Part shown: positions 41,342-56,788 of the stretch, piece after piece
How positions within the stretch are numbered: position 1 is the stretch's first letter
Layout: each line of letters opens with the position of its first letter
Source: Marinobacterium lutimaris
Lineage (GTDB): Bacteria > Pseudomonadota > Gammaproteobacteria > Pseudomonadales > Balneatricaceae
Length of the DNA: 64,000 nucleotides
Assembly: GCF_900108065.1 (NCBI RefSeq)
Contig: NZ_FNVQ01000008.1
Coordinates: 1 to 64,000, forward strand
Reading direction: 5' to 3'
Translations under genes and position numbers: made by a program
The notes under the pieces: generated by a model
Databases searched by the model: none
What the model saw: the letters and a program-made list of their open reading frames with translations, nothing else
What the model was told of the DNA's origin: nothing

Positions 41342-42850
41342 TTACGCCTTCTGGGCAGCCATAGCCGGTGCAGATGAACGAGGAGCTTTCTTTTTAAGCA
41401 CACTCTTCGACTCATCGATAAACTCATCCGCAATGGCGCCCGGGCGCTGGGTGCAGAGGCTGACGACCACATACAGCAGAGTCGCAACCGGAACGCCCCA
41501 GATCCCCGCAGGCAAGCCGAACAGCTTTCCGCCAGTGGCATAGATGTAGAGCACCAATGCGCCGGCACCCAGGGTGCTGGCCAGCACGCCTGCCGCCGTT
41601 GCGCGACGCCAGAAGAAGGCACCAATGGTTGCTGGCACCAGCACCGCAAGGCCCGAGGACGCGGCCACCGACAGTACGGCGATCAGATCCAGCTCCAGCT
41701 GGGCAAAGACGTAGGCCAGGATAGCGATAACGGGGATAACCAGCTTGCCCACCAGCAGCTGACGCGATTCAGGCACATCCTGCTTCACGTTCGCATAGAC
41801 ATCACGCGCCAGCATGGAAGATAGCGTCAGCATGATCGAGTCGATGGTCGATACCGCCGCAGCCATGATGCCGATCATAACGATAACGCCCAGCACCGGC
41901 GGCACCATGCCGGAGGAAAGCAGTGCCGGAGTCGCCATATCTGCCTTTTCCAGCGAGGGGAAAGCCACCAGAGCGGAAAAGCCCCAGAGCACAGACACCA
42001 GCGTATAGATGAAGCCGAAAATCAGGAAGCCGATCAGCATCTGGCGCAGCGACTTCAGCGATGAGGGCATAAACAGACGCTGACTCACCTGGGGGTTAGA
42101 CAGGCTGAAGAAGAACCAGGGAATGGTCAGCCCCAGGAAGGTAACAAAGCTGAACAGGCCACTGCCGGGCACGGTCAGAGACTCTGGGTGATCCTTCTCC
42201 AGGGTAGCGAACATGGCGTCAAACCCGCCAAGCTTGTCGATTACGATCAGTGCAACGATGGTAGAGACCACGACCATCATGATCGCCTGCAGCGAATCGG
42301 TCCACATCACCGAGCGGATACCGGCGATATAGGAGAAGAACAGCGCCAGCACTGTGGCGAAAAGCACCCCGGTAGTGAACGAGATAGCGCCATCGGTCAT
42401 CCCCGCCAACAGGTAGCCGACACCGGTCAGCTGTACCGCTGCGTAGGGGATAAGGAACAGGCAGCTGGCCAGCGCAGTAGAGGTGGCTACCGCCTTGCTC
42501 TGGTAGCGATGGCCCAGCATTTCACTGGGAGTGACATAGCCGAACTTCTTGCCGACGGACCAGAATTTAGGCCCAAAAATCGCGACCAGCGAAACACCGG
42601 CAAAATAAACGATCTCAAAGCCCAGGGCGCCGACGCCCCCCTTATAGGTCAGGCCCGCCAGGCCTACCATCATGAACGCGCTGTAGGTGGTAGCGCTGTA
42701 GCTCAGCGCGGAGACAAAACCGTTCATCTGTCGCCCACCGAGGAAGTAACTCGACATATCGGCGGCCTTGCCCTGACGGGAGAGTACTGCGATGCCTATC
42801 GCTATTACCAGATAGATGGCGACGGACCACCAGATTAATGATTCACTCAT
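41342..42850 (-). CDS. Sodium:solute symporter (SSS family), candidate nicotinate importer
   Basis: A 502-residue, about 13-helix sodium symporter. Family markers include SYFLGGRQMNGFVSALSYSATTYSAF near the N-terminus and the LSNPQVSQRLFMPSS segment of SSS proteins. The ligand is not readable. I infer a nicotinate or related pyridine role because two copies of the palindrome shared with nicX and nicC lie upstream of its operon. It starts 2 bases after the 60-residue partner. Pantothenate-like or proline-like solutes are alternatives. Confidence 0.85.
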   Translation of the reverse strand: MSESLIWWSVAIYLVIAIGIAVLSRQGKAADMSSYFLGGRQMNGFVSALSYSATTYSAFMMVGLAGLTYKGGVGALGFEIVYFAGVSLVAIFGPKFWSVGKKFGYVTPSEMLGHRYQSKAVATSTALASCLFLIPYAAVQLTGVGYLLAGMTDGAISFTTGVLFATVLALFFSYIAGIRSVMWTDSLQAIMMVVVSTIVALIVIDKLGGFDAMFATLEKDHPESLTVPGSGLFSFVTFLGLTIPWFFFSLSNPQVSQRLFMPSSLKSLRQMLIGFLIFGFIYTLVSVLWGFSALVAFPSLEKADMATPALLSSGMVPPVLGVIVMIGIMAAAVSTIDSIMLTLSSMLARDVYANVKQDVPESRQLLVGKLVIPVIAILAYVFAQLELDLIAVLSVAASSGLAVLVPATIGAFFWRRATAAGVLASTLGAGALVLYIYATGGKLFGLPAGIWGVPVATLLYVVVSLCTQRPGAIADEFIDESKSVLKKKAPRSSAPAMAAQKA

Positions 42851-43130: not shown

Positions 43131-43146
43131 ATGGCGTACACGCTAT
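43131..43146. promoter_or_regulatory. NicR-type palindrome, site A
   Basis: ATGGCGTACACGCTAT matches 12 of 16 positions of the palindrome at 50054. All four differences are transitions and two of them keep symmetry. It is 96 bases upstream of the small membrane protein that precedes the symporter. Confidence 0.6.
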
Positions 43147-43227: not shown

Positions 43228-43243
43228 AAAGCGTATACACTAT
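43228..43243. promoter_or_regulatory. NicR-type palindrome, site B
   Basis: AAAGCGTATACACTAT matches 14 of 16 positions of the palindrome at 50054. It is 193 bases upstream of the symporter operon and 82 bases from site A, in the same gene-free region. Confidence 0.65.
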
Positions 43244-44004: not shown

Positions 44005-45357
44005 ATGAAAATTTATTTGACCTATAGCGACAAGGACAATGATACAGCCTCGGTAATATCCTCTGCCCTGAAAAAGGCCAGGCATAAGGTTATCGAAGAC
44101 CCCCTTTCCACCACGCCGGGTGAGAACGTATTTAAAAAACTGGAAGAGAGCAGCAGCTCATCTGACGCCTATGTTGTGATACTCAGCACACACTCGCTGG
44201 CTTCAGATGCCCTTAAGCACGAACTCTCGGCACTGGCCCTGAACGAGCTGTCAAAAAGCACCCTGAGAGTTATTCCCCTGTTAATCGACAAGTCCCAGGC
44301 CCCGAGTTATCTGATACAAGACTTTATAATCGATATGAGCGACAACCTAGACCTTGGTATCAGCAAACTGCTTGAAATACTGCAGGATGAAGAGCGGTTC
44401 AAAGATGACAGGGTAAGCGCTAAACCGAGCATCACAGAGAAATACGCCAACCAGATCCAATCCATTGCCGAATCCCTGCATGCTGGCCAGCTGACCCTTT
44501 TCTGCGGCGCCGGAGTCACCATCGGCGCAGGCGTGCCCTCCTGGAACAAGCTGCTGCTCACCTTGCTTGAGTCGATGATGCGCCGGGTATCCAATGACCA
44601 CTCCATATCACTGGAGGGAAGCGACGCGGGGATATTTCAAAGAAGGTATAAGCCCTCCTCGCTGTTGATGGGCAAATACCTGAAGAACAACCTTGGAAAA
44701 GACTTCCTCAAGGAAATACGTTCATCGCTTTATAGCAGCAACCCTCATAGCTGCGACATTATTGATGCCATCGTCGAGCTGTCTCGCCCACAGAGAGATG
44801 GAAAGCCGCTGGACTCTATTATCACCACTAACTTTGATTCCCTGCTGGAAGAAAATCTAAAAAAACAGAACATTAATTTTCATTCCATTTATAAAGAAGG
44901 AGCCCGAAACTCTCCCAAAGAGATTCCCATTTATCACGTCAACGGGTTCTTGCCGAGAAAAGGTGAAATACCCAGTCAGATGGAGCTGGTATTCAGTGAG
45001 GATGCTTACCACAATCAGTTTATCGAGCCATTCAGCTGGTCTAACCTGATTCAGCTTAACAAGATCAGCCAGAATACCTGCCTCTTTATCGGCCTCAGTC
45101 TGTCAGACCCGAACCTGCGAAGACTGCTGGATGTGGCAAATCGAAAGAATCCCGAAAAGGTGCTGAACCACTACATCATCAAGAAGACGCCAGGCACCTC
45201 ATCCGGCCAGGACCCCATGGACGCACTTGCTCTGCTCCTCGAAGAGCAGGATGCGAACGACCTGGGGCTCAATGTGCTTTGGGCCGATGAGTTCGAGGAT
45301 ATTGCCCCCCTGCTGCTGGCACTGACCAATAACCGACAAGCCGGAGAAACCGGATAG
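44005..45357 (+). CDS. TIR-SIR2 fusion protein, probable NAD-consuming defence effector
   Basis: A 450-residue protein with an N-terminal TIR-like domain (about 1-126: IYLTYSDKDND first strand, YVVILSTHSLAS fourth, with E73 of ALKHELSAL in the position of the catalytic Glu). A linker (127-145) leads to a SIR2-like domain (about 150-400: LFCGAGVTIGAG nucleotide motif at 165-176, TTNFD at 274-278, H311 in YHVNG). Both folds act as NAD hydrolases in bacterial anti-phage systems such as Thoeris and DSR. Fusion of both in one chain without SLOG or other modules is uncommon. Its DNA is clearly lower in GC than neighbours, and it lies inside the nicotinate locus, which suggests transfer. Confidence 0.85.
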   Translation: MKIYLTYSDKDNDTASVISSALKKARHKVIEDPLSTTPGENVFKKLEESSSSSDAYVVILSTHSLASDALKHELSALALNELSKSTLRVIPLLIDKSQAPSYLIQDFIIDMSDNLDLGISKLLEILQDEERFKDDRVSAKPSITEKYANQIQSIAESLHAGQLTLFCGAGVTIGAGVPSWNKLLLTLLESMMRRVSNDHSISLEGSDAGIFQRRYKPSSLLMGKYLKNNLGKDFLKEIRSSLYSSNPHSCDIIDAIVELSRPQRDGKPLDSIITTNFDSLLEENLKKQNINFHSIYKEGARNSPKEIPIYHVNGFLPRKGEIPSQMELVFSEDAYHNQFIEPFSWSNLIQLNKISQNTCLFIGLSLSDPNLRRLLDVANRKNPEKVLNHYIIKKTPGTSSGQDPMDALALLLEEQDANDLGLNVLWADEFEDIAPLLLALTNNRQAGETG

Positions 45358-45485: not shown

Positions 45486-48404
45486 TCAGTGCGTACCAGG
45501 GTACGCCCTGTAGTCGGCGACCTTGCTTCGGATATCCGCATCACTCCACGGCTTTTTACCCGGTGCAAAAGCAGAGCGCAGATATTTAACCAGTGCGACC
45601 ACTTGGCCATCATCATAGTCCTGCTTGAAGCCAGGCATCATGCCGACCTTGGGCAGCTCCAGGGTCTTCGCCTGTACACCATAGAGAATGGTCTGGATGA
45701 CATTGTCCGGGGTGTTGCTGTGAAGGTTGGTATTCACGCCCAAGGGGACATCCGCACGGGTGAGCGATGGCAGGCCGCCCTCGTCATGACAAACGGCACA
45801 GCCTGAATCAAAGATTCGCTGCCCCTCGCCCAGGGCCGCCAGCGATGCCTCATCCAGCCCCGCGGGCAAAGGCGCCGGCGTGGTCAGCACCGCTTCAGCC
45901 ACAGCGGATTGATCGGAGAAGGAAGCGACATAATGAGCGATTGCACGCACATCGGTCTCTGGCAGATTGGCAAGGCCTGCCACCACCGGCGCCATGGGAC
46001 CACCCGCTACACCGTGATTGACGGAGCGCCCTTCACGCAGGTACTGGAAAAGATCCTCTTCCGTCCAGGGTTTGGGCGCATTGGACAACGAACTTAGCGC
46101 CGGCGCTTCCCAGCCATCGACCAGGGCGCCGGCCAGATAGTTACTGCCTTTCTTTTCCGCGCCCAGCAGGTCCCTGGGGGAGTGACAGGCGCTACAGTGA
46201 CCCAGACCCTCGGCCAGATAGGCGCCCCGATTCCAGAGATCCGACTTGGATGCATCGGGTTCAAAGGGTTTGGGATCGTGATTCAGCGTGTTCCAACCCG
46301 CCAGTATCGGCCGATAGCTCATGGGGAAGCTCATCTCTGCCGCTTTATTGACCTGCGTCTCCGGCTTCTGCGCCATCAGGTAAGCGTAAAGCGCCTGCAT
46401 ATCACCGTCGCTGATCTTGGCGAAAGCGGTATAGGGAAAGACCGGATAGAGATGTTTGCCATCACGGCTTATGCCGTGACGCATGGCGCGATTGAACGCC
46501 TCAAAGCTCCAGCTGCCGATCCCCTGCTTCTCATCCGGTGTGATATTGCTGCTGTAAACGGTGCCGAATGGGGTTTCAAACGGCCGGCCGCCGGCATTTT
46601 CGATACCGCCGATTTCGGTATGACAGACCGCACAGTCCCCGGCTTCCGCCACCAGCCGACCGCGCTCGATAGTCGCCTGTGAATAAAGGTCAGGCGCCGG
46701 TCGCGAAACCGGCACCATCGCCTTCGGCCAGGGCCAGGCCATGGCCGCCACTCCAAGACCGACCGCGGCCGCTGCCCTGAAGCCATTACGTTTAATTCTG
46801 CGGGACTTTTCCGCCGCTGGTACGCTCGACGCGCCCTGCAGGGCTGCACCACGAATCCGCTCTGCCGAAAACGGCAGGCTTCTGAAACGTACGCCGGTGG
46901 CGTTATGTATGGCGTTGCCTATGGCAGAGATAGCGGGATAGAAAACTTCGGGGCTGACTTGCTCCATACTAGCTTTCTGCGCACTGACTTCGGATCCACT
47001 CTCACTATCCTCGACCGAGGGCAGGCGACTGATCTCCACCGGCAGTTCGCCACTGGCTGAAATCTGAGCAGAGTCGTCACTGCCCCATTGATCGTAGGCG
47101 GTCTGCCCCAGCAGCAACGGCCGGCTCACAGACAGCAGCTCTCGCTGCAGCAGATCCTTGAGGAACTCCTGCTCCGGCGCAGGGCCAGAATCCTGGCCAA
47201 CCACCAGGCGCTTCAGCGTGATATCCCCGGTGATCTTGTTCACCTCAAGATCGACGATCCAGGCCGAGCGTACACCCTCGCTCTGGTCACCCTGTTCGCC
47301 CCCCTGCTGAGAGCAGGCGACGCCGCGCCCTGTGGATATATCAACCTTGTCGGAAACCGGCCTATTAGCGTCCCCAGGTTGCCAGCCCGCTTTGGCGGCT
47401 ACCGAGGCGAGCAGCTCCCGACTGCGTTCATCGTTAAGATGGCGCAGGCGGTAGGCGATGGGATCGCAACCATCCTTATCGGCCAGTTCATCAACAAAGG
47501 TTTCCCGGGCAAAAACATCCTGCAGTCGATCCTGCTCCAGGTCCCAGTATGCCTCCTGCTCCGACGGCCCGTCCTCTATCGACACCCGGTCGAAATCGTA
47601 AGGCCAGTGACGCTCACTCACTTCACGCCGGTTCAGCGCCGGCGCGATATTAGCCAGTAACAGGGCGACGGCGGGAGCGCTGTTCCAGAACTGCTCGACT
47701 TTCTGGTCGATGCTACGATCTGACGACGCATAGTTGAGACGATTTGCCTGAGCGACCCCCAAACCATCAACCACATCCTGATAGGCCTCATCCAGCAGCA
47801 CCGACACCGATCGCTTGGTCAGTTTTGCCAGCAGCGCCGCATCAGCGGCGGCGTCATCAGCACAGGTACGGCTGATGCCGGTTTTATGACCGCCGACCAC
47901 CTCAATGTCATCGACACTGCACCCCAGCATCGATGACAGGTCTGCCCTGAGCCGAGTGTGACTGTTGGATGGAGCCCAGATGGTCCAGCGCCCCTGGGTT
48001 TCAGCAGCCGCCACCCACTCCGGACTTTCGCCCCAGCGGATCCGGTTGGGCCAGGCAAAACGGGAGCCGTAGCTCTCTTTGTGGGTCGCCAGATCCTGAC
48101 TCGTGCTGTTATCCACAGCCACTAGACTGGCCTCGGGTTTATTCCAGACCAGTTTTGCCTGTCGGGCACCCAACCTCGCCTGCTCCGGAGTTTGTGCCAC
48201 CACGGCAACGAAGTTATCGGCGACGATCAACTGCGCGCCACTCAGCACGAGCTCCGCCTTTACCAGACGGCTGCTGACAAAACGCCCATTAATTAATTGG
48301 AACTGAGGTGGACGCAAAGCCACCCCGTATAACATATCTTCCGGGCCCGGCTTACAGGGCACGTGCGACTCCCGCTGAACCGCTTTGCTGGTGTCTTCAC
48401 TCAT
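45486..48404 (-). CDS. nicB: NicB-like protein with degenerate molybdopterin domain and three haem c motifs
   Basis: A 972-residue protein. Residues about 25-540 align with a xanthine-dehydrogenase-type molybdopterin domain but lack its first segment. The GVGE catalytic motif is replaced by VSPE, so the Glu is lost. A transmembrane anchor follows (about 550-575). Three CxxCH motifs are at about 591 (CAVCH), 737 (CSACH) and 869 (CAVCH), as in the cytochrome part of NicB. I infer that it passes electrons from the Fe-S subunit to the respiratory chain and no longer does catalysis. The start overlaps the nicA stop (ATGA). The intact molybdopterin subunit is at 54509-56788. Confidence 0.8.
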   Translation of the reverse strand: MSEDTSKAVQRESHVPCKPGPEDMLYGVALRPPQFQLINGRFVSSRLVKAELVLSGAQLIVADNFVAVVAQTPEQARLGARQAKLVWNKPEASLVAVDNSTSQDLATHKESYGSRFAWPNRIRWGESPEWVAAAETQGRWTIWAPSNSHTRLRADLSSMLGCSVDDIEVVGGHKTGISRTCADDAAADAALLAKLTKRSVSVLLDEAYQDVVDGLGVAQANRLNYASSDRSIDQKVEQFWNSAPAVALLLANIAPALNRREVSERHWPYDFDRVSIEDGPSEQEAYWDLEQDRLQDVFARETFVDELADKDGCDPIAYRLRHLNDERSRELLASVAAKAGWQPGDANRPVSDKVDISTGRGVACSQQGGEQGDQSEGVRSAWIVDLEVNKITGDITLKRLVVGQDSGPAPEQEFLKDLLQRELLSVSRPLLLGQTAYDQWGSDDSAQISASGELPVEISRLPSVEDSESGSEVSAQKASMEQVSPEVFYPAISAIGNAIHNATGVRFRSLPFSAERIRGAALQGASSVPAAEKSRRIKRNGFRAAAAVGLGVAAMAWPWPKAMVPVSRPAPDLYSQATIERGRLVAEAGDCAVCHTEIGGIENAGGRPFETPFGTVYSSNITPDEKQGIGSWSFEAFNRAMRHGISRDGKHLYPVFPYTAFAKISDGDMQALYAYLMAQKPETQVNKAAEMSFPMSYRPILAGWNTLNHDPKPFEPDASKSDLWNRGAYLAEGLGHCSACHSPRDLLGAEKKGSNYLAGALVDGWEAPALSSLSNAPKPWTEEDLFQYLREGRSVNHGVAGGPMAPVVAGLANLPETDVRAIAHYVASFSDQSAVAEAVLTTPAPLPAGLDEASLAALGEGQRIFDSGCAVCHDEGGLPSLTRADVPLGVNTNLHSNTPDNVIQTILYGVQAKTLELPKVGMMPGFKQDYDDGQVVALVKYLRSAFAPGKKPWSDADIRSKVADYRAYPGTH

Positions 48405-48877
48405 GCCTTTACCGCCTGCTGCTCCGCTGCCCGTTTTACCGCTCTTAAAATTTCTACATGGGTACCGCAGCGGCAAAGGTTGAACTTCAACGCTTCGCGA
48501 ATCTCGTCATCTGTCGGTGCGGGATTGGCGGCCAGCAGAGCCTTGGTGGCCATAATCATTCCGTTCAGACAGTAACCGCATTGGGCCGCCTGCTCGTGGA
48601 TAAAGGCTTCCTGCACCACGTCGGGCTGCTCAGCCGTTCCCAGCCCCTCCAGGGTGGTAATGGAACGGCCTTCCAATCGGCCGATGGGAAGCACACAGGA
48701 ACGAGCGCAAAGGCCATCAACAATGACGGAACAGGCACCGCACTGCCCCAGGCCACAACCGAACTTGGCCCCGTTCAGGCACAGGTCATTGCGCAGCACA
48801 TACAACAGGGGCGTTTCCGGCGGCAGATCCAGCCTGTACTGTTCGCCATTAATTACTAATGAGACCTTAGCGCTCAT
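48401..48877 (-). CDS. nicA: Nicotinate dehydrogenase [2Fe-2S] subunit
   Basis: A 158-residue iron-sulfur subunit. The plant-type cluster ligands C41, C46, C49 and C61 and the second cluster ligands in QCGYCLNG and NLCRCGTH are all present. It forms the dehydrogenase that hydroxylates nicotinate to 6-hydroxynicotinate. There is no FAD subunit in the locus, as in the known NicAB enzyme. I start it at 48877, with GGTGA upstream. It lies 47 bases after nicX and overlaps the NicB-like gene by 4 bases. Confidence 0.93.
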   Translation of the reverse strand: MSAKVSLVINGEQYRLDLPPETPLLYVLRNDLCLNGAKFGCGLGQCGACSVIVDGLCARSCVLPIGRLEGRSITTLEGLGTAEQPDVVQEAFIHEQAAQCGYCLNGMIMATKALLAANPAPTDDEIREALKFNLCRCGTHVEILRAVKRAAEQQAVKA

Positions 48878-48924
48878 AATTGTCACCACTTACGAAATGA
48901 TTGCAGCCCGTTACCTCACGATCC

Positions 48925-49977
48925 TTACTTGACGATCGACATGTCCGGCGCGACTACATCGCCTTCCACGACTACAGGCTTATCATCCAGGTAAACGCTG
49001 CATTTTCTGAGCGGGATATCCATGTGGCAAGGCGTCTTGCGACTGCCGCCAACCTCGGTGTTCGGACCTGTTGAGAACAGGAAGTTACCGTAGAACGCAC
49101 GCGCATCCATACACATGCCATCGTTCTTATCGTACAGCCCCATGGCGGTCCACTGCGCCCGCGGCTGCAGCCCCCAACCGATGTGCGAGATGCCGTAAAC
49201 CTCTTCATCTTTGAAGTAGGCCATGTAATCACGCAGGTATTCCGCTTCGAAGCCACCATGGATACTGGTAATAAAGCCTTTTTCAATCTCCAGCACGGTT
49301 TTTTCCCGCGCGTAGGTCTTAAACGGCAGCAGGATATCACCCACATCGATCACCAGCTTGCCTTCGGCGGTACCTTCGTTCGGCCAGGAGAACAGGAAGC
49401 CGCTGGGCCAGTGGTCCCAACGTCCCGGCTCGTCCGCATAACCGTACTCGGTGACGGCCGGATACTGACCGAGGCTGGCACGGAAATCGGAACCCGCCTT
49501 GGAGGTTACATGCATCGACCTAGCCGACTGCAGCAACTCTTTAGAGGCCTCTACGCGCAATTTATCGGCTTCTGTCGGCAGCATTCGGGCCAGCACTTCC
49601 GGCGGCTCTACCGCCAGCAGGATACGGGTACCCGACTTCAGGATCTGCTCCTGCTCCGGCGAGTGCAGCAGCATCATGGTATCCACTACCATATCGGCGG
49701 CTTCCAGCGCGCGCTGCGCGGCCAGATTTCCGGTCAGAGGCGTATCGCCACAATAGGCGGTCAAGTCGGCGCCCATCGCCTTGGGGTGATTGAAGGCTGG
49801 CAGCTCCACTATATAGACCTGGGCTTTCAGTCGCTGCGCGGCATCCATCGCGGCGCTGACGATACGCTCATTAGAGTAATGGCTTTTCAGAATCGCAACG
49901 CTCTGGGTCTCGTCCACTTTCGACAGACGCAGTACCTCTTCGAACATCTGCGCCAATTCGGAATTACTTACCGGCAT
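48925..49977 (-). CDS. nicX: 2,5-dihydroxypyridine 5,6-dioxygenase
   Basis: A 350-residue ring-cleaving dioxygenase that converts 2,5-dihydroxypyridine to N-formylmaleamate. The iron ligands are H265 (GISHIGW), H318 and D320 (CHMDIPL), at the same residue numbers as in the Pseudomonas putida enzyme. I start it at 49977 (GAGGAG upstream). It is the first gene of a minus-strand unit nicX-nicA-nicB and has a perfect palindromic operator 77 bases upstream. Confidence 0.96.
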   Translation of the reverse strand: MPVSNSELAQMFEEVLRLSKVDETQSVAILKSHYSNERIVSAAMDAAQRLKAQVYIVELPAFNHPKAMGADLTAYCGDTPLTGNLAAQRALEAADMVVDTMMLLHSPEQEQILKSGTRILLAVEPPEVLARMLPTEADKLRVEASKELLQSARSMHVTSKAGSDFRASLGQYPAVTEYGYADEPGRWDHWPSGFLFSWPNEGTAEGKLVIDVGDILLPFKTYAREKTVLEIEKGFITSIHGGFEAEYLRDYMAYFKDEEVYGISHIGWGLQPRAQWTAMGLYDKNDGMCMDARAFYGNFLFSTGPNTEVGGSRKTPCHMDIPLRKCSVYLDDKPVVVEGDVVAPDMSIVK

Positions 49978-50053
49978 CGTCTCTCTCCTCAGGATCCTAA
50001 TGACTTTAGACTGCGGCCATCGCGTCACGACCTACCGAAGCCCGCTATACCAC

Positions 50054-50069
50054 ATAGTGTATACACTAT
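50054..50069. promoter_or_regulatory. nicX: NicR-type palindrome, site D (perfect)
   Basis: ATAGTGTATACACTAT is a perfect 16-bp palindrome, 77 bases upstream of nicX. It is the best copy of the motif found upstream of the symporter operon, nicC and the nicR-nicB intergenic region, and fits a MarR-type dimer site. Confidence 0.8.
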
Positions 50070-50253
50070 TAATATCTCATGTAAAAGCCCTCCGCGTGGC
50101 TAGCAAAGCTATCAAACAGCTATAACAGGCTGTTTTTATTGATACACATCAGCAATCTAATGTCACATTTTTTGAAAAGCCTGATCTAAGGCACAGCCTT
50201 TTTCATATTTTTTTGGTCTGTACACTTTACTTAGCCCCCTCGTTGGATTAATT

Positions 50254-51478
<1,225 letters not shown>

Positions 51479-51480
51479 TC

Positions 51481-52281
51481 ATGAGCAGCACTTTCCTTTA
51501 CGGCGCGAACGTTTGCGCCAACAACATCCGTCAGCACTACCTGCGTTACGGCGGCAAGGGCACTCCCCTGCTGCTGGTTCCGGGTATCACCAGTCCCGCT
51601 ATCACCTGGGGCTTCGTGGCTGAGCGTCTCGGCGAGCATTTCGACACTTACGTTCTCGACGTACGCGGACGCGGGCTGTCCTCCACCGGACCGGACCTCT
51701 CCTATGACATCGACAGCTGCGTCGATGACATTATCGAGTTCGCCAAAGAGCTGGGCCTGAAGGATTTTATCCTGCTGGGCCACTCCATGGGCGCCCGCTT
51801 CGGTATTCGCGCGGCACGTAAAGGGCTCGCAGGCCTGAGCAGACTGGTACTGGCGGATCCGCCCGTATCCGGCCCGGGCCGCCGCGAGTACCCGAGCAAA
51901 CTACCCTGGTACGTGGACTCCATCCGTGACGCCACCCGTGGCTGCGACCTTGAGACCATGCGCCAGTACTGCCCGACCTGGACCGACGAGCAGCTGCACC
52001 TGCGCGCCGAATGGCTGCATACCTGCTACTCCCCGGCCATCGTCAAGGCGTTTAACGACTTCCATGAAGATGACATCTTCCCGGATCTGCCGGCCGTTAA
52101 GGTACCGACCCAGCTGATGGTCGCTGGCAAGGGCGGCGTTATCCAGGAAGAAGATATCGAGGAGTTCCAGGACGCGGTGGCCAACCTCACCGTCAGTCAT
52201 GTGCCCAACGCAGGACACATGATCCCCTGGGATGACCTCGAAGGCTTTCTAAACAGTCTGTACGCGTTCCTCGACGTTTAA
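51481..52281 (+). CDS. nicD: N-formylmaleamate deformylase
   Basis: A 266-residue alpha/beta hydrolase that removes formate from N-formylmaleamate. The nucleophile is S102 in GHSMGAR, the Asp is D126 (VLADPP) and the His is H246 (NAGHMIP). It starts 2 bases after nicC with GGAGG upstream. The order and length match the nicotinate pathway set. Confidence 0.93.
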   Translation: MSSTFLYGANVCANNIRQHYLRYGGKGTPLLLVPGITSPAITWGFVAERLGEHFDTYVLDVRGRGLSSTGPDLSYDIDSCVDDIIEFAKELGLKDFILLGHSMGARFGIRAARKGLAGLSRLVLADPPVSGPGRREYPSKLPWYVDSIRDATRGCDLETMRQYCPTWTDEQLHLRAEWLHTCYSPAIVKAFNDFHEDDIFPDLPAVKVPTQLMVAGKGGVIQEEDIEEFQDAVANLTVSHVPNAGHMIPWDDLEGFLNSLYAFLDV

Positions 52282-52348
52282 GTCATGAACCGAATCCGCT
52301 GTGGGACCTATCCCGCGGCGGAAAACACACTCTTCCAAAGGCATAAAA

Positions 52349-53104
52349 ATGAGCAAGACTTTTAGAATCGGGCAGATCGTGCCGAGCTCCAACCTGACCA
52401 TGGAAACCGAAATTCCGGCAATGCTTAACGCCCGTCAGCTGATCCGCCCGGACGAGCGTTTCACCTTCCACTCCAGCCGCATGCGCATGAAGAAGGTCAG
52501 CAAAGAAGAGCTCGAAGCGATGGATGCCGACTCCGATCGCTGCGCACTGGAACTGAGCGACGCCCAGGTCGATGTGATGGGTTACGCCTGCCTGGTGGCC
52601 ATCATGTCCATGGGCCTGGGTTACCACCGCGAATCTGAATCCCGCCTGGCACTTCGCACCCGCGAGAACGGCTCAGATACTCCGATCGTCACCAGCGCCG
52701 GCGCCCTGGTGCAGGGCCTGGAAGCGATGGGTGTGAAGAAGATCGCCCTGGTCGCTCCGTACATGAAGCCGCTGACCGAACTAGTGGTTAACTACATCCG
52801 CAATGAGGGTTACGAAGTGCTGGATTACCGCGCTCTCGAGATCCCCGACAACCTGGATGTGGCCCGCCACGATCCGATGAACCTGCCCGATATCGTCGCC
52901 TCCATGGACCTGACCGATGTGGACGCCATCGTGCTGTCCGCTTGCGTACAGATGCCGTCTCTGCCGGCGATCTCCAAGGTTGAGGCGATGACCGGCAAGC
53001 CGGTTGTTACCGCAGCGGTCGCAACCACTTACCAGATGCTGAAAGCGCTGGATCTCGAGCCGGTGGTACCGGGCGCAGGCGCACTGCTGTCAGGCACATA
53101 CTAA
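52349..53104 (+). CDS. nicE: Maleate cis-trans isomerase
   Basis: A 251-residue enzyme of the Asp/Glu racemase fold that turns maleate into fumarate. The two catalytic Cys are C81 (GYACLVAIM) and C199 (LSACVQMP). I start it at 52349, with AAAGGC upstream. It lies 67 bases after nicD in the same operon. Confidence 0.93.
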   Translation: MSKTFRIGQIVPSSNLTMETEIPAMLNARQLIRPDERFTFHSSRMRMKKVSKEELEAMDADSDRCALELSDAQVDVMGYACLVAIMSMGLGYHRESESRLALRTRENGSDTPIVTSAGALVQGLEAMGVKKIALVAPYMKPLTELVVNYIRNEGYEVLDYRALEIPDNLDVARHDPMNLPDIVASMDLTDVDAIVLSACVQMPSLPAISKVEAMTGKPVVTAAVATTYQMLKALDLEPVVPGAGALLSGTY

Positions 53105-53123
53105 TTAAACAGGGGGCAAAAAA

Positions 53124-53759
53124 ATGAGTGACCAGCCGACTTCAGAAGCAAACGACAACTACAAGGGAGTGTGGGACAGCCGTATCGGTTTTGGCCGGAA
53201 AACCGCCATCATCGTTATCGACTTCATGAAGGGTTACACCACCGAAGGCGCTCCTCTTTACGCCCCCGGCGTTGTCGAAGCGATCAAGCACGCACCCAAG
53301 CTGCTCGAGGCCGCCCGTAAGAACGGCCAGCTCGTGATCCACACCAATATCCGTTACCAGCCTGGCTCCTTCCAGGATGGCGGTATCTGGGTGAAAAAGG
53401 CGCCGGTGATGAAAGACATGGTTGAGGGCAACCCTCTGGCCGAGTTCTGCGACGAGGTAAAACCCGTTGAAGGCGAACTGGTGATCACCAAGCAGTATCC
53501 GAGCTCCTTCTTCGGTACCAGCCTGGCGGCGACTCTGGTGGCCCAGGGTGTGGATACTGTACTGCTGGCGGGCTGCTCAACCAGCGGCTGCGTTCGCGCC
53601 ACCGCAGTGGATGGCGTATCACACGGTTTCCGCGTGATCGTCGCGCGGGAGTGCGTGGGTGACCGTCATTCGGCGCCACACGAGGCCAACCTGTTCGACA
53701 TCGACAGCAAGTATGGCGACGTGATCAGTTTGGAGGAGTGCCTGCAGCATCTCAGCTGA
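53124..53759 (+). CDS. nicF: Maleamate amidohydrolase
   Basis: A 211-residue isochorismatase-fold amidase that converts maleamate to maleate and ammonia. The triad is D33 (VIDFMKG), K123 (ITKQYPSSF) and C156 (STSGCVRAT). AGGGGG precedes the ATG. It is the last gene of nicCDEF and is followed by a strong terminator shared with nicR. Confidence 0.94.
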   Translation: MSDQPTSEANDNYKGVWDSRIGFGRKTAIIVIDFMKGYTTEGAPLYAPGVVEAIKHAPKLLEAARKNGQLVIHTNIRYQPGSFQDGGIWVKKAPVMKDMVEGNPLAEFCDEVKPVEGELVITKQYPSSFFGTSLAATLVAQGVDTVLLAGCSTSGCVRATAVDGVSHGFRVIVARECVGDRHSAPHEANLFDIDSKYGDVISLEECLQHLS

Positions 53760-53773
53760 TACACGCGGAACAA

Positions 53774-53804
53774 AAAAGAGCACCATCGATGATGGTGCTC
53801 TTTT
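53774..53804. terminator. Bidirectional terminator between nicF and nicR
   Basis: AAAAGAGCACCATC / GATGGTGCTCTTTT is a perfect 14-bp stem with a 3-base loop. It lies between converging genes and has A and T runs on its two sides. Confidence 0.92.
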
Positions 53805-53864
53805 GCCTTTGAATACAGGTTTTTTCCGCGCGGGCTAATTAAACGAATGCGGAAAAAAATACTC

Positions 53865-54353
53865 TCAGGAGTTCATTTTATTAAGCAGAAGCGCCAGGGC
53901 CACCCTTTCGGTCCCGGTGAGATTTTCCAGGGTTTTCTCGGTAATTTCGAAAGCGCGGGGAATCATGTTGTTAACCAGGGCCTTGCCCTCATCCGTAATA
54001 TGCACAATAACTTTGCGCTGATCCCGCGGGTCCGATTTAAACTCGATCAGGCCACGCTTATTCAGGCGCGAGATGACACCGCGGATCGTGGCCTGGTCGA
54101 TCGCAGTCAGCCTGACAAGCTCGGTTTGCGAAGAGGGGCCGTTATCAACCACCGTGCAGAGAATAGCGAACTGCATGGGCGTCAGCTGCTTGTCGCAGCT
54201 AAGCTGTTGAAATATTGCAGTGTGACGTTGATGAGCCTTGCGGATCAAATGACCGATCTGCTCCGTCACTACATAATCACTGGCAGCGGATGATAGATCA
54301 CTATTTGCCGCCGGTACTGGAGCCTGCATAACGCTAGACGTTTGTTTTGCCAT
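53865..54353 (-). CDS. nicR: MarR-family regulator of the nicotinate genes (NicR-like)
   Basis: A 162-residue MarR regulator with a Ser/Ala-rich N-terminal tail (1-25), a dimerisation helix pair and the winged helix (about 60-115: LTPMQFAILCTV, RGVISRLNKRGLIEF, SDPRDQRKVIVHIT). Known NicR proteins repress nicotinate genes and are relieved by 6-hydroxynicotinate. Its gene shares an intergenic region with the molybdopterin subunit gene, where a copy of the palindrome is found, so it probably controls itself too. Confidence 0.88.
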   Translation of the reverse strand: MAKQTSSVMQAPVPAANSDLSSAASDYVVTEQIGHLIRKAHQRHTAIFQQLSCDKQLTPMQFAILCTVVDNGPSSQTELVRLTAIDQATIRGVISRLNKRGLIEFKSDPRDQRKVIVHITDEGKALVNNMIPRAFEITEKTLENLTGTERVALALLLNKMNS

Positions 54354-54429
54354 AGTTTTATTTGTCTTTATCTGGGTTATTAAAAAGCGACCTCAGGCTT
54401 CAGCCCTGCTTAGCTGCTATGCTAGCTTT

Positions 54430-54445
54430 ATAGCGCGTACACTAT
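54430..54445. promoter_or_regulatory. NicR-type palindrome, site F
   Basis: ATAGCGCGTACACTAT matches 13 of 16 positions of the perfect palindrome at 50054. It lies 77 bases upstream of nicR and 64 bases upstream of the molybdopterin subunit gene, so it can control both. Confidence 0.7.
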
Positions 54446-54508
54446 TATATACTGCTAACGACTAAATCTACCATCTGTTGTATTGATGAGATCCATCAGG
54501 AGTGACCC

Positions 54509-56788
54509 ATGAGTAATAATTCAGCCTCAGTTCCTTCCCGGGAGCACATCCTTACTGCCGATGGTACGCTCGTCGTTTACCGCGACCCCAAGCCTTCCCC
54601 CAGGCCAGCGCCCGGCCAGCCCGGCACCTACTCCAATTATGTGCCGACCGAGCCCGAGCTGTTTCTCGCCATGCTTGACGATGGCAGAACCCTCGCCTTC
54701 AACGGCCACGTCGATCTGGGCACAGGCATACGTACATCACTGGCGCAGATCGTCGCCGAAGAGCTCGATATCGCGCCGGAAAAGGTGTGCATGATTCTCG
54801 GCGACCCCAAAGATGTACCAAACCAGGGGCCAACCATCGCCAGCGCCACCATCCAGATCACGGCACAACCGCTACGAAAAGCAGCCGCTCAGGCGAAGCA
54901 GTACCTGCTCAAACTGGCCGCCGACAAACTCGCAACCGACGTGGATAAGCTAAATGTTAACCGTGGCGTCGTCGAGTCCAACGTCAACCCGGAACTCAAC
55001 ATCAGCTATGAAGCGCTGCTAAAAGGCGCCCGTCACGAGCTGCAGCACGATGACAGCGTGCAGGTTAAGTCCCCCGCCGAATATAAAACGGTGGGCACCT
55101 CCTTTGGCCGCGTCGATATTCCGAAGAAAGCCACCGGCCAACTGACCTTTGTGCACGATATGCGCGTTCCCGGTATGCTGCACGGCCGCGTGATCAGGCC
55201 TCCCTATGTGGGCCGCGACAGCGGTGAATTTGTCGGCACCAGCCTGATCCGGATTGATCGTCACTCCATCGACCATATCCACGGCATCGTCGATATCGTT
55301 GTCCAGGGTGATTTCGTTGGCGTTGTCGCCGAGCGCGAAGAGCAGGCGATCAAAGCTGCCAACGAACTTCACGTGGAATGGAAAACACCACCAAAGCTGC
55401 CGGATCTCAACAATCTGGAAAAAGTGCTGCGCGAGATTCCGGCCAAATACCGCCCCCTGCGCCAGCAGGGCGATTTCGAGCGGGCCAGTCAATCAGGCAC
55501 CGAGAGTATCGCTCACACCTATATCTGGCCCTACAACCTGCACGGCTCCATCGGCCCCTCCTGCGCCCTGGCCGACTGCACCGAATCCAGCCTTAAGGTC
55601 TGGTCCGGCACGCAGAATCCGCACAGCCTCAGAAACCACCTCTCCTCACTGATGGACCTTGATGAAGGCGCCATCGAAGTGGTGCGGATGGAGGCCTCAG
55701 GCTGCTATGGCCGGAACTGTGCCGATGATGTCTGCGGCGATGCCGCGCTGCTCTCCCGTGCGGTCAAGAAGCCGGTCCGGGTGCAACTGTCACGGGAGCA
55801 GGAACACGGCTGGGAGCCCAAGGGTACCGCCCAGCTGATGGACGCCGAGGCAGTACTGGATAAGGACCGGATCTCCGCCTACAAATTCAGCACCCGCTAT
55901 CCGTCCAACGACGCGCCGTTACTGGCGCTGGTGCTCACCGGCAAGGAGGACGCCAGCAACCGCATTTTCGAGATGGGTGACCGCACGGCGGTGCCGCCCT
56001 ACGCTTACGCCAACTTGGATATCTCCTGCGACGATGCCCCACCGGTGGTGCGCTCAGCCTGGCTGCGCGGCGTTTCCGCCCTGCCGAACACCTTTGCCCA
56101 CGAGTGCATGATCGACGAACTGGCCAGCCGGGCCGGAGCCGATCCCATAGAATTCCGCATCAGCCACCTGAACGACGAGCGCGTGATCAGTCTGATCAAC
56201 GAGCTGAAAGAAAACTATGGCTGGCAGAGCCGCGTCGCCGGCAAGGGTACCCAAACCGCCGATGGTGGCCTTAAGGGACGGGGTTTTGCCTACGCCCACT
56301 ATGTGCACAGTAAATTCCCCGGTTTTGGTGCGGCCATGGCCGCCTGGATACTGGAGCTCACCGTATACCCGGAAACCGGCGAAATCAAAATCGACAGAGT
56401 CGTTGCGGCCCAGGACGCGGGGCTGATCGTAAACCCCGCCGGGGTCCAGCACCAGGTTCACGGCAATATCATTCAGACCCTCAGCCGCTGCATCAAGGAA
56501 GAGGTGGTATTCAACAGCGACCAGCCCACCACGCTGGAATGGGGCAGCTACCCGATCCTTAAGTTTAATGAGCTGCCGCAGATCGACATTCTGCTGCTGA
56601 ACAAGCCCGACGAAGCACCGCTGGGTGTCGGCGAATCTGCCGCCCTGCCCTGCGCACCAGCCATCGCCAACGCCCTGTTCGACGCCACCGGCGTCCGCTT
56701 TTACGAGGCTCCGTTTACGCCGGAAAGAATTCGCAAACGTTTGGCTGCGGCGAAGGTTTCAACCCGTAGCCAGCCGGTACCGGCCTAA
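54509..56788 (+). CDS. nicB: Nicotinate dehydrogenase molybdopterin subunit (haem-free, stand-alone)
   Basis: A 759-residue xanthine-dehydrogenase-type subunit. It has the N-terminal VDLGTGIRT (68-76) molybdopterin segment, an intact middle part (GCYGRNCADDVCGD) and the catalytic glutamate E709 in GVGESAALP. It has no signal peptide, no transmembrane helix and no CxxCH. I infer that it pairs with NicA and the haem protein at 45486-48404 and supplies the catalytic centre. Its promoter region is shared with nicR and contains a palindrome. It might instead act on another N-heterocycle. Confidence 0.82.
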   Translation: MSNNSASVPSREHILTADGTLVVYRDPKPSPRPAPGQPGTYSNYVPTEPELFLAMLDDGRTLAFNGHVDLGTGIRTSLAQIVAEELDIAPEKVCMILGDPKDVPNQGPTIASATIQITAQPLRKAAAQAKQYLLKLAADKLATDVDKLNVNRGVVESNVNPELNISYEALLKGARHELQHDDSVQVKSPAEYKTVGTSFGRVDIPKKATGQLTFVHDMRVPGMLHGRVIRPPYVGRDSGEFVGTSLIRIDRHSIDHIHGIVDIVVQGDFVGVVAEREEQAIKAANELHVEWKTPPKLPDLNNLEKVLREIPAKYRPLRQQGDFERASQSGTESIAHTYIWPYNLHGSIGPSCALADCTESSLKVWSGTQNPHSLRNHLSSLMDLDEGAIEVVRMEASGCYGRNCADDVCGDAALLSRAVKKPVRVQLSREQEHGWEPKGTAQLMDAEAVLDKDRISAYKFSTRYPSNDAPLLALVLTGKEDASNRIFEMGDRTAVPPYAYANLDISCDDAPPVVRSAWLRGVSALPNTFAHECMIDELASRAGADPIEFRISHLNDERVISLINELKENYGWQSRVAGKGTQTADGGLKGRGFAYAHYVHSKFPGFGAAMAAWILELTVYPETGEIKIDRVVAAQDAGLIVNPAGVQHQVHGNIIQTLSRCIKEEVVFNSDQPTTLEWGSYPILKFNELPQIDILLLNKPDEAPLGVGESAALPCAPAIANALFDATGVRFYEAPFTPERIRKRLAAAKVSTRSQPVPA

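Follow-up and report, generated by a model that had tools for sequence, protein, structure and literature searches.

In the nicotinate dehydrogenase of Pseudomonas putida, the molybdenum (Mo) site and the haems are fused in a single chain, NicB. Another nicotinate dehydrogenase is NdhSLM, of Comamonas testosteroni JA1. As far as the consulted extracts of a review go (PMC10331938), NdhSLM is a three-subunit enzyme in which the Fe-S, Mo and electron-transfer subunits are separate chains, and its NdhM subunit, of 46 kD, is called a flavoprotein. Similar extracts report a tripartite NicA/NicB1/NicB2 from Burkholderia gladioli and Bordetella (PMC10269826) and give the gene names nicB1 and nicB2 for Delftia (PMC4572682). 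Here we analysed the nic cluster in the first 64,000 nucleotides of contig NZ_FNVQ01000008.1 of Marinobacterium lutimaris (the window), which encodes two NicB-like chains: one adjoins nicA (hereafter pB) and the other lies further away (cB). A sequence-only reading of this DNA had contrasted the pair with the known NicAB enzymes; that contrast is not supported, since three-part enzymes are in print in the three sources just cited. The three-gene layout is thus already known, and what the extracts searched do not mention is a dead Mo domain. We found no description of one in a nicotinate dehydrogenase in the literature searched, part of it in extract only, and an earlier description is possible.

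The comparison with these systems can be made at several levels. Like B. gladioli, Bordetella and Delftia, as far as the extracts describe them, the window holds two separate NicB genes together with nicA in a nic cluster, and the loci of Burkholderia arboris, Paraburkholderia, Caballeronia and Cupriavidus collected here carry pB and cB, as in the tripartite layout; this likeness is one of gene layout. NdhSLM resembles the window in having its functions on separate chains, but NdhM, at the size given in the review extract, is too small to hold both a pseudo-Mo domain and haems; the Mo-like domain of pB spans about 500 residues. Separate Mo and haem chains are the layout of two related loci (L063, L079). 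Eight fused chains of the P. putida type (L057, L060, L062, L073-L076, L078) share with our locus the NicA partner and the Mo and tri-haem domains, and all but one of them (L076) also have other nic genes nearby. They differ in being one open reading frame (ORF) of 1182-1382 aa in which an intact Mo site stands together with the haems.

By its sequence, cB (54509..56788, plus strand; 759 aa) is the intact Mo chain, NicB1-like, and the N-terminal part of pB (45486..48404, minus strand; 972 aa from ATG, the longest ORF reaching 996 aa from TTG) is a dead NicB domain, which makes pB non-catalytic. As the sequence-only reading had stated, cB has VDLGTG (residues 68-73, 54710-54727) and GVGE (residues 706-709, 56624-56635) and no CxxCH motif; it matches MoCoBD_1 and MoCoBD_2 in Pfam. 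For pB, no MoCoBD match was obtained in Pfam at 1e-3 and the only matches were to cytochrome c. The three CxxCH motifs attributed to this 972-residue, nicA-linked protein are indeed present (residues 591, 737 and 869). The role of a complete Mo subunit with a catalytic GxGE is therefore filled by cB only, and, unlike the P. putida layout, the Mo site and the haems are not fused in one chain here.

The pseudo-Mo domain of pB covers residues about 22-530 (46815..48341, minus strand) and was delimited with hhalign and motif tables, which show the N-terminal molybdenum cofactor (MoCo) half-domain to be missing and the GxGE loop to be absent. Its homology to the Mo chain goes, on sequence grounds, far beyond chance. 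A search of the window's own genome gave 30% identity between the N-terminal part of pB and cB (E 1.4e-41), and hhalign of 22 pB N-terminal parts against 16 cB-type sequences gave a probability of 100 and E 9.7e-88, which upholds the earlier claim that both chains share NicB-like regions. Against the PDB, the N-terminal profile of pB matched Escherichia coli PaoC (3.6e-31) and 8gy3_C (2.9e-29). The hhalign register places pB columns 43-565 on cB columns 222-754, so that the pseudodomain starts at about cB column 222 and some 220 residues at the N-terminus of the Mo chain have no counterpart in pB. The absent region includes about 47-178, aligned with residues 22-153 of 3hrd_B, which make up one half of a molybdopterin-binding domain.

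The loss recurs in all the loci compared. The columns of VDLGTG are empty in 22/22 pB chains (21/22 in a second alignment, where L054 shows 3 stray letters), in agreement with the earlier statement that the 972-residue protein lacks this N-terminal segment. GxGE is found in register in none of the 22, whereas none of the 36 remaining rows (34 catalytic-type, 2 outgroup) lacks the catalytic glutamate. The sequence-only reading had placed VSPE of pB opposite GVGE; the loop is absent as it said, but the alignment had been made by eye and the glutamate of VSPE lies off the catalytic column in both of our alignments. Other invariant residues of the catalytic chains are lost as well, among them Q80, R520 and Q649. 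A core is nevertheless kept, which includes F529, A530, D536, E537, D545, P546 and an A-T-G-x-R stretch: 29 columns are invariant across all 22 pB, and in 23 of these the same residue occurs in at least 80% of the 34 catalytic rows.

Constraint on the pseudodomain is relaxed but real. We computed the ratio of nonsynonymous to synonymous rates (dN/dS) for 13 close pairs, which are not independent: the pseudodomain gave 0.195-0.425, the haem domain 0.068-0.267 and cB 0.075-0.294. Over-long ORF starts (e.g. cB of L045-L048, L056 and L058; pB of L047-L049) add noise to these values, and apparent frame disturbances at both ends of the Halomonas pB (L068) affect its haem-domain values. The pseudodomain ratio exceeded that of cB in 12/13 pairs and that of the haem domain in 11/13, and the path lengths of the pseudodomain had a median 3.88 times those of cB. 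Measured on the pseudodomain, distances between loci correlate with the cB distances (r 0.82) and with the haem-domain distances of pB (r 0.91; Mantel p 0.0002).

The split event is common to many genomes and not local to the window's genome. Eighteen of the 22 pB loci were found with a pB query and four (L069-L072) with a cB query; since loci were picked by pB-like or cB-like matches and called pB by domain presence, the set does not amount to an unbiased count. In each of the 22 loci, cB lies within the nic cluster that holds pB (for L050, in the neighbouring stretch L081). In the window's family, 2/116 genomes have a pB homologue at 1e-100. Fifteen of 390 genomes of its order match the N-terminal part of pB at 1e-20, and these, classified from their DNA, comprise 10 with pB and cB, 3 with a fused NicB (1187-1224 aa) and 2 with separate Mo and haem chains lacking the pseudodomain. 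In its class, a cB-type match at 1e-100 was obtained in 4/369 genomes, two of them tripartite (the window's genome and G187, which the order sample had included too) and two with separate chains (L079, L080). Named loci with pB and cB come from six Cupriavidus, Halomonas sp. PA16-9, two Caballeronia, Paraburkholderia caribensis and Burkholderia arboris; a scan of named genomes, with 37 pattern matches and six relatives, yielded Cupriavidus only. From a plasmid collection, 11 records were examined among those with matches (616 with the pB query, 242 with the cB query). On a Pseudomonas plasmid (L077, NZ_CP072560.1 185000-198000), a 781-aa NicB-type chain without its first half has an IS6100 transposase gene directly upstream; this fragment was left out of the trees.

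In a tree of the Mo domain (498 shared columns, 58 rows), the pseudodomains form one clade (support 99/97), as do the fused NicB chains (98/95) and the tripartite cB (91/89), and these sequences give good support to a single origin of the dead domain. Among the rows sampled, no partner-less cB falls inside the tripartite cB clade. cB groups with the fused NicB-type chains (92/82), to whose Mo part, in all eight NicA-adjoining cases, it is 52-56% identical. The pseudodomains stand beside the fused NicB and cB clades within a NicB group (100/99), apart from L064, L080 and two paralogues of the window's own genome. In the haem tree, pB, the fused chains and the chains of L063 and L079 make one group (100/99) whose internal order is not settled, the pB haems lying on one side of a weakly supported branch (66/73). 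Approximately unbiased (AU) tests rejected none of three other placements, pB with cB (p 0.123), pB with fused NicB (0.254) or pB with the fused and L063/L079 chains together (0.386); the exact placement of pB is unsure because its branches are long. The sequence-only reading had proposed duplication followed by loss of complementary halves. The two NicB-like chains and their complementary losses stand, while duplication of a fused NicB is plausible and consistent with the trees, the AU tests being compatible with more than one order of duplication, fusion and loss.

C-terminal to the pseudodomain, pB has a hydrophobic segment (residues about 546-564; 46713..46769, minus strand), whose best window scores 1.12 on the Kyte-Doolittle scale, a weak value, with a net charge of +5 before and 0 after it. 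The tri-haem cytochrome c domain follows (45489..46709, minus strand; CxxCH at 46634-46620, 46196-46182 and 45800-45786). Its best PDB match is 8gy3_A (1.3e-93), and that of cB is 8gy3_C (6e-40); the membrane-bound aldehyde dehydrogenase of Gluconobacter (8gy3) is thus the best-scoring solved relative of both. The haem subunit 8gy3_A, of 444 aa, matches the haem part of pB only. With a simple hydropathy window, the best 19-residue segment before the haems scored 1.12-2.13 in pB and 1.32-1.74 in the fused chains, and its N-side was more positive than its C-side in all 22 pB and likewise in each fused chain. A simple pattern for twin-arginine translocation (Tat) signals, applied to the first 90 residues of the ORFs, found none in the 22 pB or the 22 tripartite cB. 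Attachment of haem c is periplasmic. The difference in charge across the segment suggests that the pseudodomain lies inside and the haems outside the membrane. Because the haems would be periplasmic and no Tat pattern was found, the pseudodomain would be the only cytoplasmic part of pB, and therefore a natural dock. The topology predicted in this way, for pB and for the fused NicB, has the membrane separating the haems from NicA and the Mo site.

From these sequences we judge it fairly probable that the locus encodes a tripartite nicotinate dehydrogenase made of NicA, a NicB1-like cB and a NicB2-like pB whose dead domain serves as a docking piece. The division of labour by sequence is a complete Mo site in cB, two [2Fe-2S] domains in NicA (48401..48889, minus strand; a 162-aa ORF from GTG with an in-frame ATG at 48877; Fer2 and Fer2_2) and three haem c motifs in pB; the stop codon of nicA and the start codon of pB overlap as ATGA. 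In this enzyme, cB and NicA would hydroxylate nicotinate to 6-hydroxynicotinate in the cytoplasm, and electrons would pass from Mo through the NicA clusters and the pB haems to the respiratory chain. The dead domain would hold NicA-cB at the membrane-anchored haem chain, perhaps in place of the second Mo subunit of a Mo-Mo' pseudo-dimer. As to origin, a NicB-type chain was likely duplicated, one copy then losing its haems and the other being truncated at its 5' end; because NicB-type chains carry the MoCo half-domain at their N-terminus, one deletion adjoining nicA could cleanly remove it. That a single old event in the xanthine-oxidase family produced a dedicated pseudo-molybdopterin subunit, its catalytically dead, half-deleted Mo domain being selected as an asymmetric partner of the live Mo subunit that docks NicA-cB on the membrane tri-haem chain, is a bolder proposal to which we give slightly less than an even chance. 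If true, it would provide a clear pseudoenzyme subunit among the molybdenum hydroxylases, with live fused-layout relatives for comparison, and would suggest a way for a redox enzyme of one chain to be divided and still assemble. For annotation there is a warning: in these genomes the NicB-like chain adjoining nicA is, judged from its sequence, not the catalytic one, a part that falls to the cluster's other NicB-like gene.

Several observations weigh against this docking model or against a wholly dead domain. A glutamate, alone, does occupy the catalytic column in 4/22 pB (L051, L070, L071, L072) in both alignments; in L051 a GGGE string also occurs, upstream of that column and out of register with it. 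Several pB have a weak hydrophobic segment (1.12-1.2), some windows falling below the usual score of a membrane helix, and how electrons would get from an iron-sulphur protein in the cytoplasm to haems in the periplasm is a puzzle, one common to the fused NicB. Separate haem chains without a pseudodomain exist in relatives (L063 and L079, and the deeper L064 and L080), so a dock is not generally needed. In Paraburkholderia caribensis and Burkholderia arboris (L071, L072), pB has 817-832 aa and a further reduced pseudodomain, the first half of which gave no BLAST match, and this shortening could mean slow decay. The correlated distances reported above would be expected within one cluster even without contact. 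The docking role that we infer also gains nothing from the predicted structures, which are poor: AlphaFold reached a pLDDT of 53.5 and a pTM of 0.35 for pB (shallow alignment, 14 rows) and of 48.6 and 0.38 for cB (7 rows), and with the poor pB model Foldseek matched xanthine-oxidase-family chains at a TM-score of about 0.2, in line with the homology found by sequence and no more than that.

Much of this would also be expected if the pseudodomain were a passenger in slow decay, with the haem part of pB the only one of use and selection doing no more than preserve a chain that can fold. The long paths and raised dN/dS of the pseudodomain, the shorter chains of Burkholderia and Paraburkholderia and the haem chains that do without it (L063, L064, L079, L080) all fit such a decay. 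However, the pseudodomain is kept in every haem chain found beside a tripartite-clade cB (22/22 rows), its 29 invariant columns persist and its dN/dS stays below 0.43 in 13/13 pairs; we thus regard the passenger as unlikely, while giving it more weight than any other alternative. Fast evolution around a conserved core would equally permit a new pocket, and with it a ligand-binding or regulatory role such as nicotinate sensing or insertion of the molybdenum cofactor into cB. No positive evidence points to such a role, and the 23 invariant columns that retain the catalytic-chain residue are what a retained scaffold would show, which makes this explanation improbable.

Two further possibilities concern the site of catalysis. 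cB might be an unrelated aldehyde-type dehydrogenase present in the cluster by chance, pB and NicA forming the nicotinate enzyme. Relatives of cB are indeed annotated as generic molybdopterin proteins, and the consulted part of the Delftia paper gives the gene there as an aldehyde dehydrogenase (PMC4572682); but the identity of cB to the NicA-adjoining fused chains, its grouping with them and the promoter palindrome that it has in common with other nic promoters (see below) make a chance neighbour very improbable. Least credible of all, we consider, is a pB Mo site that still works and is completed in trans by another protein, as in the split Mo domains of Eubacterium barkeri. Split Mo subunits do exist (chains A and B of PDB 3hrd; PMC10331938, in extract), but the part of pB that remains has itself lost the GxGE loop and many other residues invariant in cB. 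A short orphan Mo half-domain was also missing among the seven own-genome matches of cB at E 0.001, which were cB, pB and open frames of 747-1028 aa. We retain the tripartite enzyme with a docking pseudodomain as the preferred reading.

The genes of pB and cB are predicted to belong to one regulon through a shared operator-like palindrome. The sequence ATAGTGTATACACTAT lies upstream of nicX-nicA-pB (50054..50069), a copy with 1 mismatch upstream of nicC (50254..50269) and a site with 3 mismatches between nicR and cB (54430..54445). The palindrome has 4 matches in the window against 0.03 expected; a relaxed pattern with at most 1 mismatch, run over the 5.57-Mb genome, hit 5 places, all in the window's nic region, and the reversed control pattern hit 1. 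In the nicR/cB gap, sites with 0-4 mismatches occur in L051, L053, L054, L068 and L081; L059 and L061 also have such sites ahead of cB. Most other related stretches showed no site before cB, in a scan made without a chance control, and this too speaks against the model preferred above. By analogy, the palindrome would be bound by NicR: for its homologue in Bordetella, BpsR, both binding to nic promoters and a response to 6-hydroxynicotinate are reported in the extract consulted (PMC6837509).

The rest of the cluster is the gene company of NicAB-type enzymes (nicC, D, E, F, X and R). nicX, nicA and pB lie on the minus strand and nicC, nicD, nicE and nicF on the plus strand; beyond nicF come nicR, on the minus strand, and cB, divergent from it. 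nicX (48925..49977, minus strand) was named 2,5-dihydroxypyridine dioxygenase from its annotated relatives, being 80-84% identical to the 2,5-dihydroxypyridine 5,6-dioxygenase proteins of L073, L074 and L075, and gave no match in Pfam or NCBIfam at 1e-3. nicC (50330..51478, plus strand) is a predicted flavin adenine dinucleotide (FAD) monooxygenase (FAD_binding_3), 69% identical to the FAD-dependent monooxygenase of L078. The alpha/beta hydrolase nicD (51481..52281), the Asp/Glu racemase-like nicE (52349..53104) and the amidohydrolase nicF (53124..53759), all on the plus strand, carry presumptive names that we gave from gene position and the known pathway. nicR (53865..54353, minus strand) encodes a MarR-type regulator, matching MarR.

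On the far side of pB, a TIR plus SIR2-like protein is encoded between pB and a symporter gene (44005-45357, plus strand). It matches ThsA-type defence models (best 6.3e-21), and no homologue at 1e-6 was found among the ORFs of 11 related stretches. The symporter (41342-42850, minus strand) is a sodium:solute symporter of the SSF family with two operator-like sites upstream (43131-43146 and 43228-43243). Of the 11 related stretches checked (10 genomes), 8 have a homologue with 74-79% identity in their nic region. The nicotinate transporters named in the consulted part of PMC10269826 are of the MFS or ABC types, whereas SSF is another family. The SSF symporter is a candidate nicotinate transporter.

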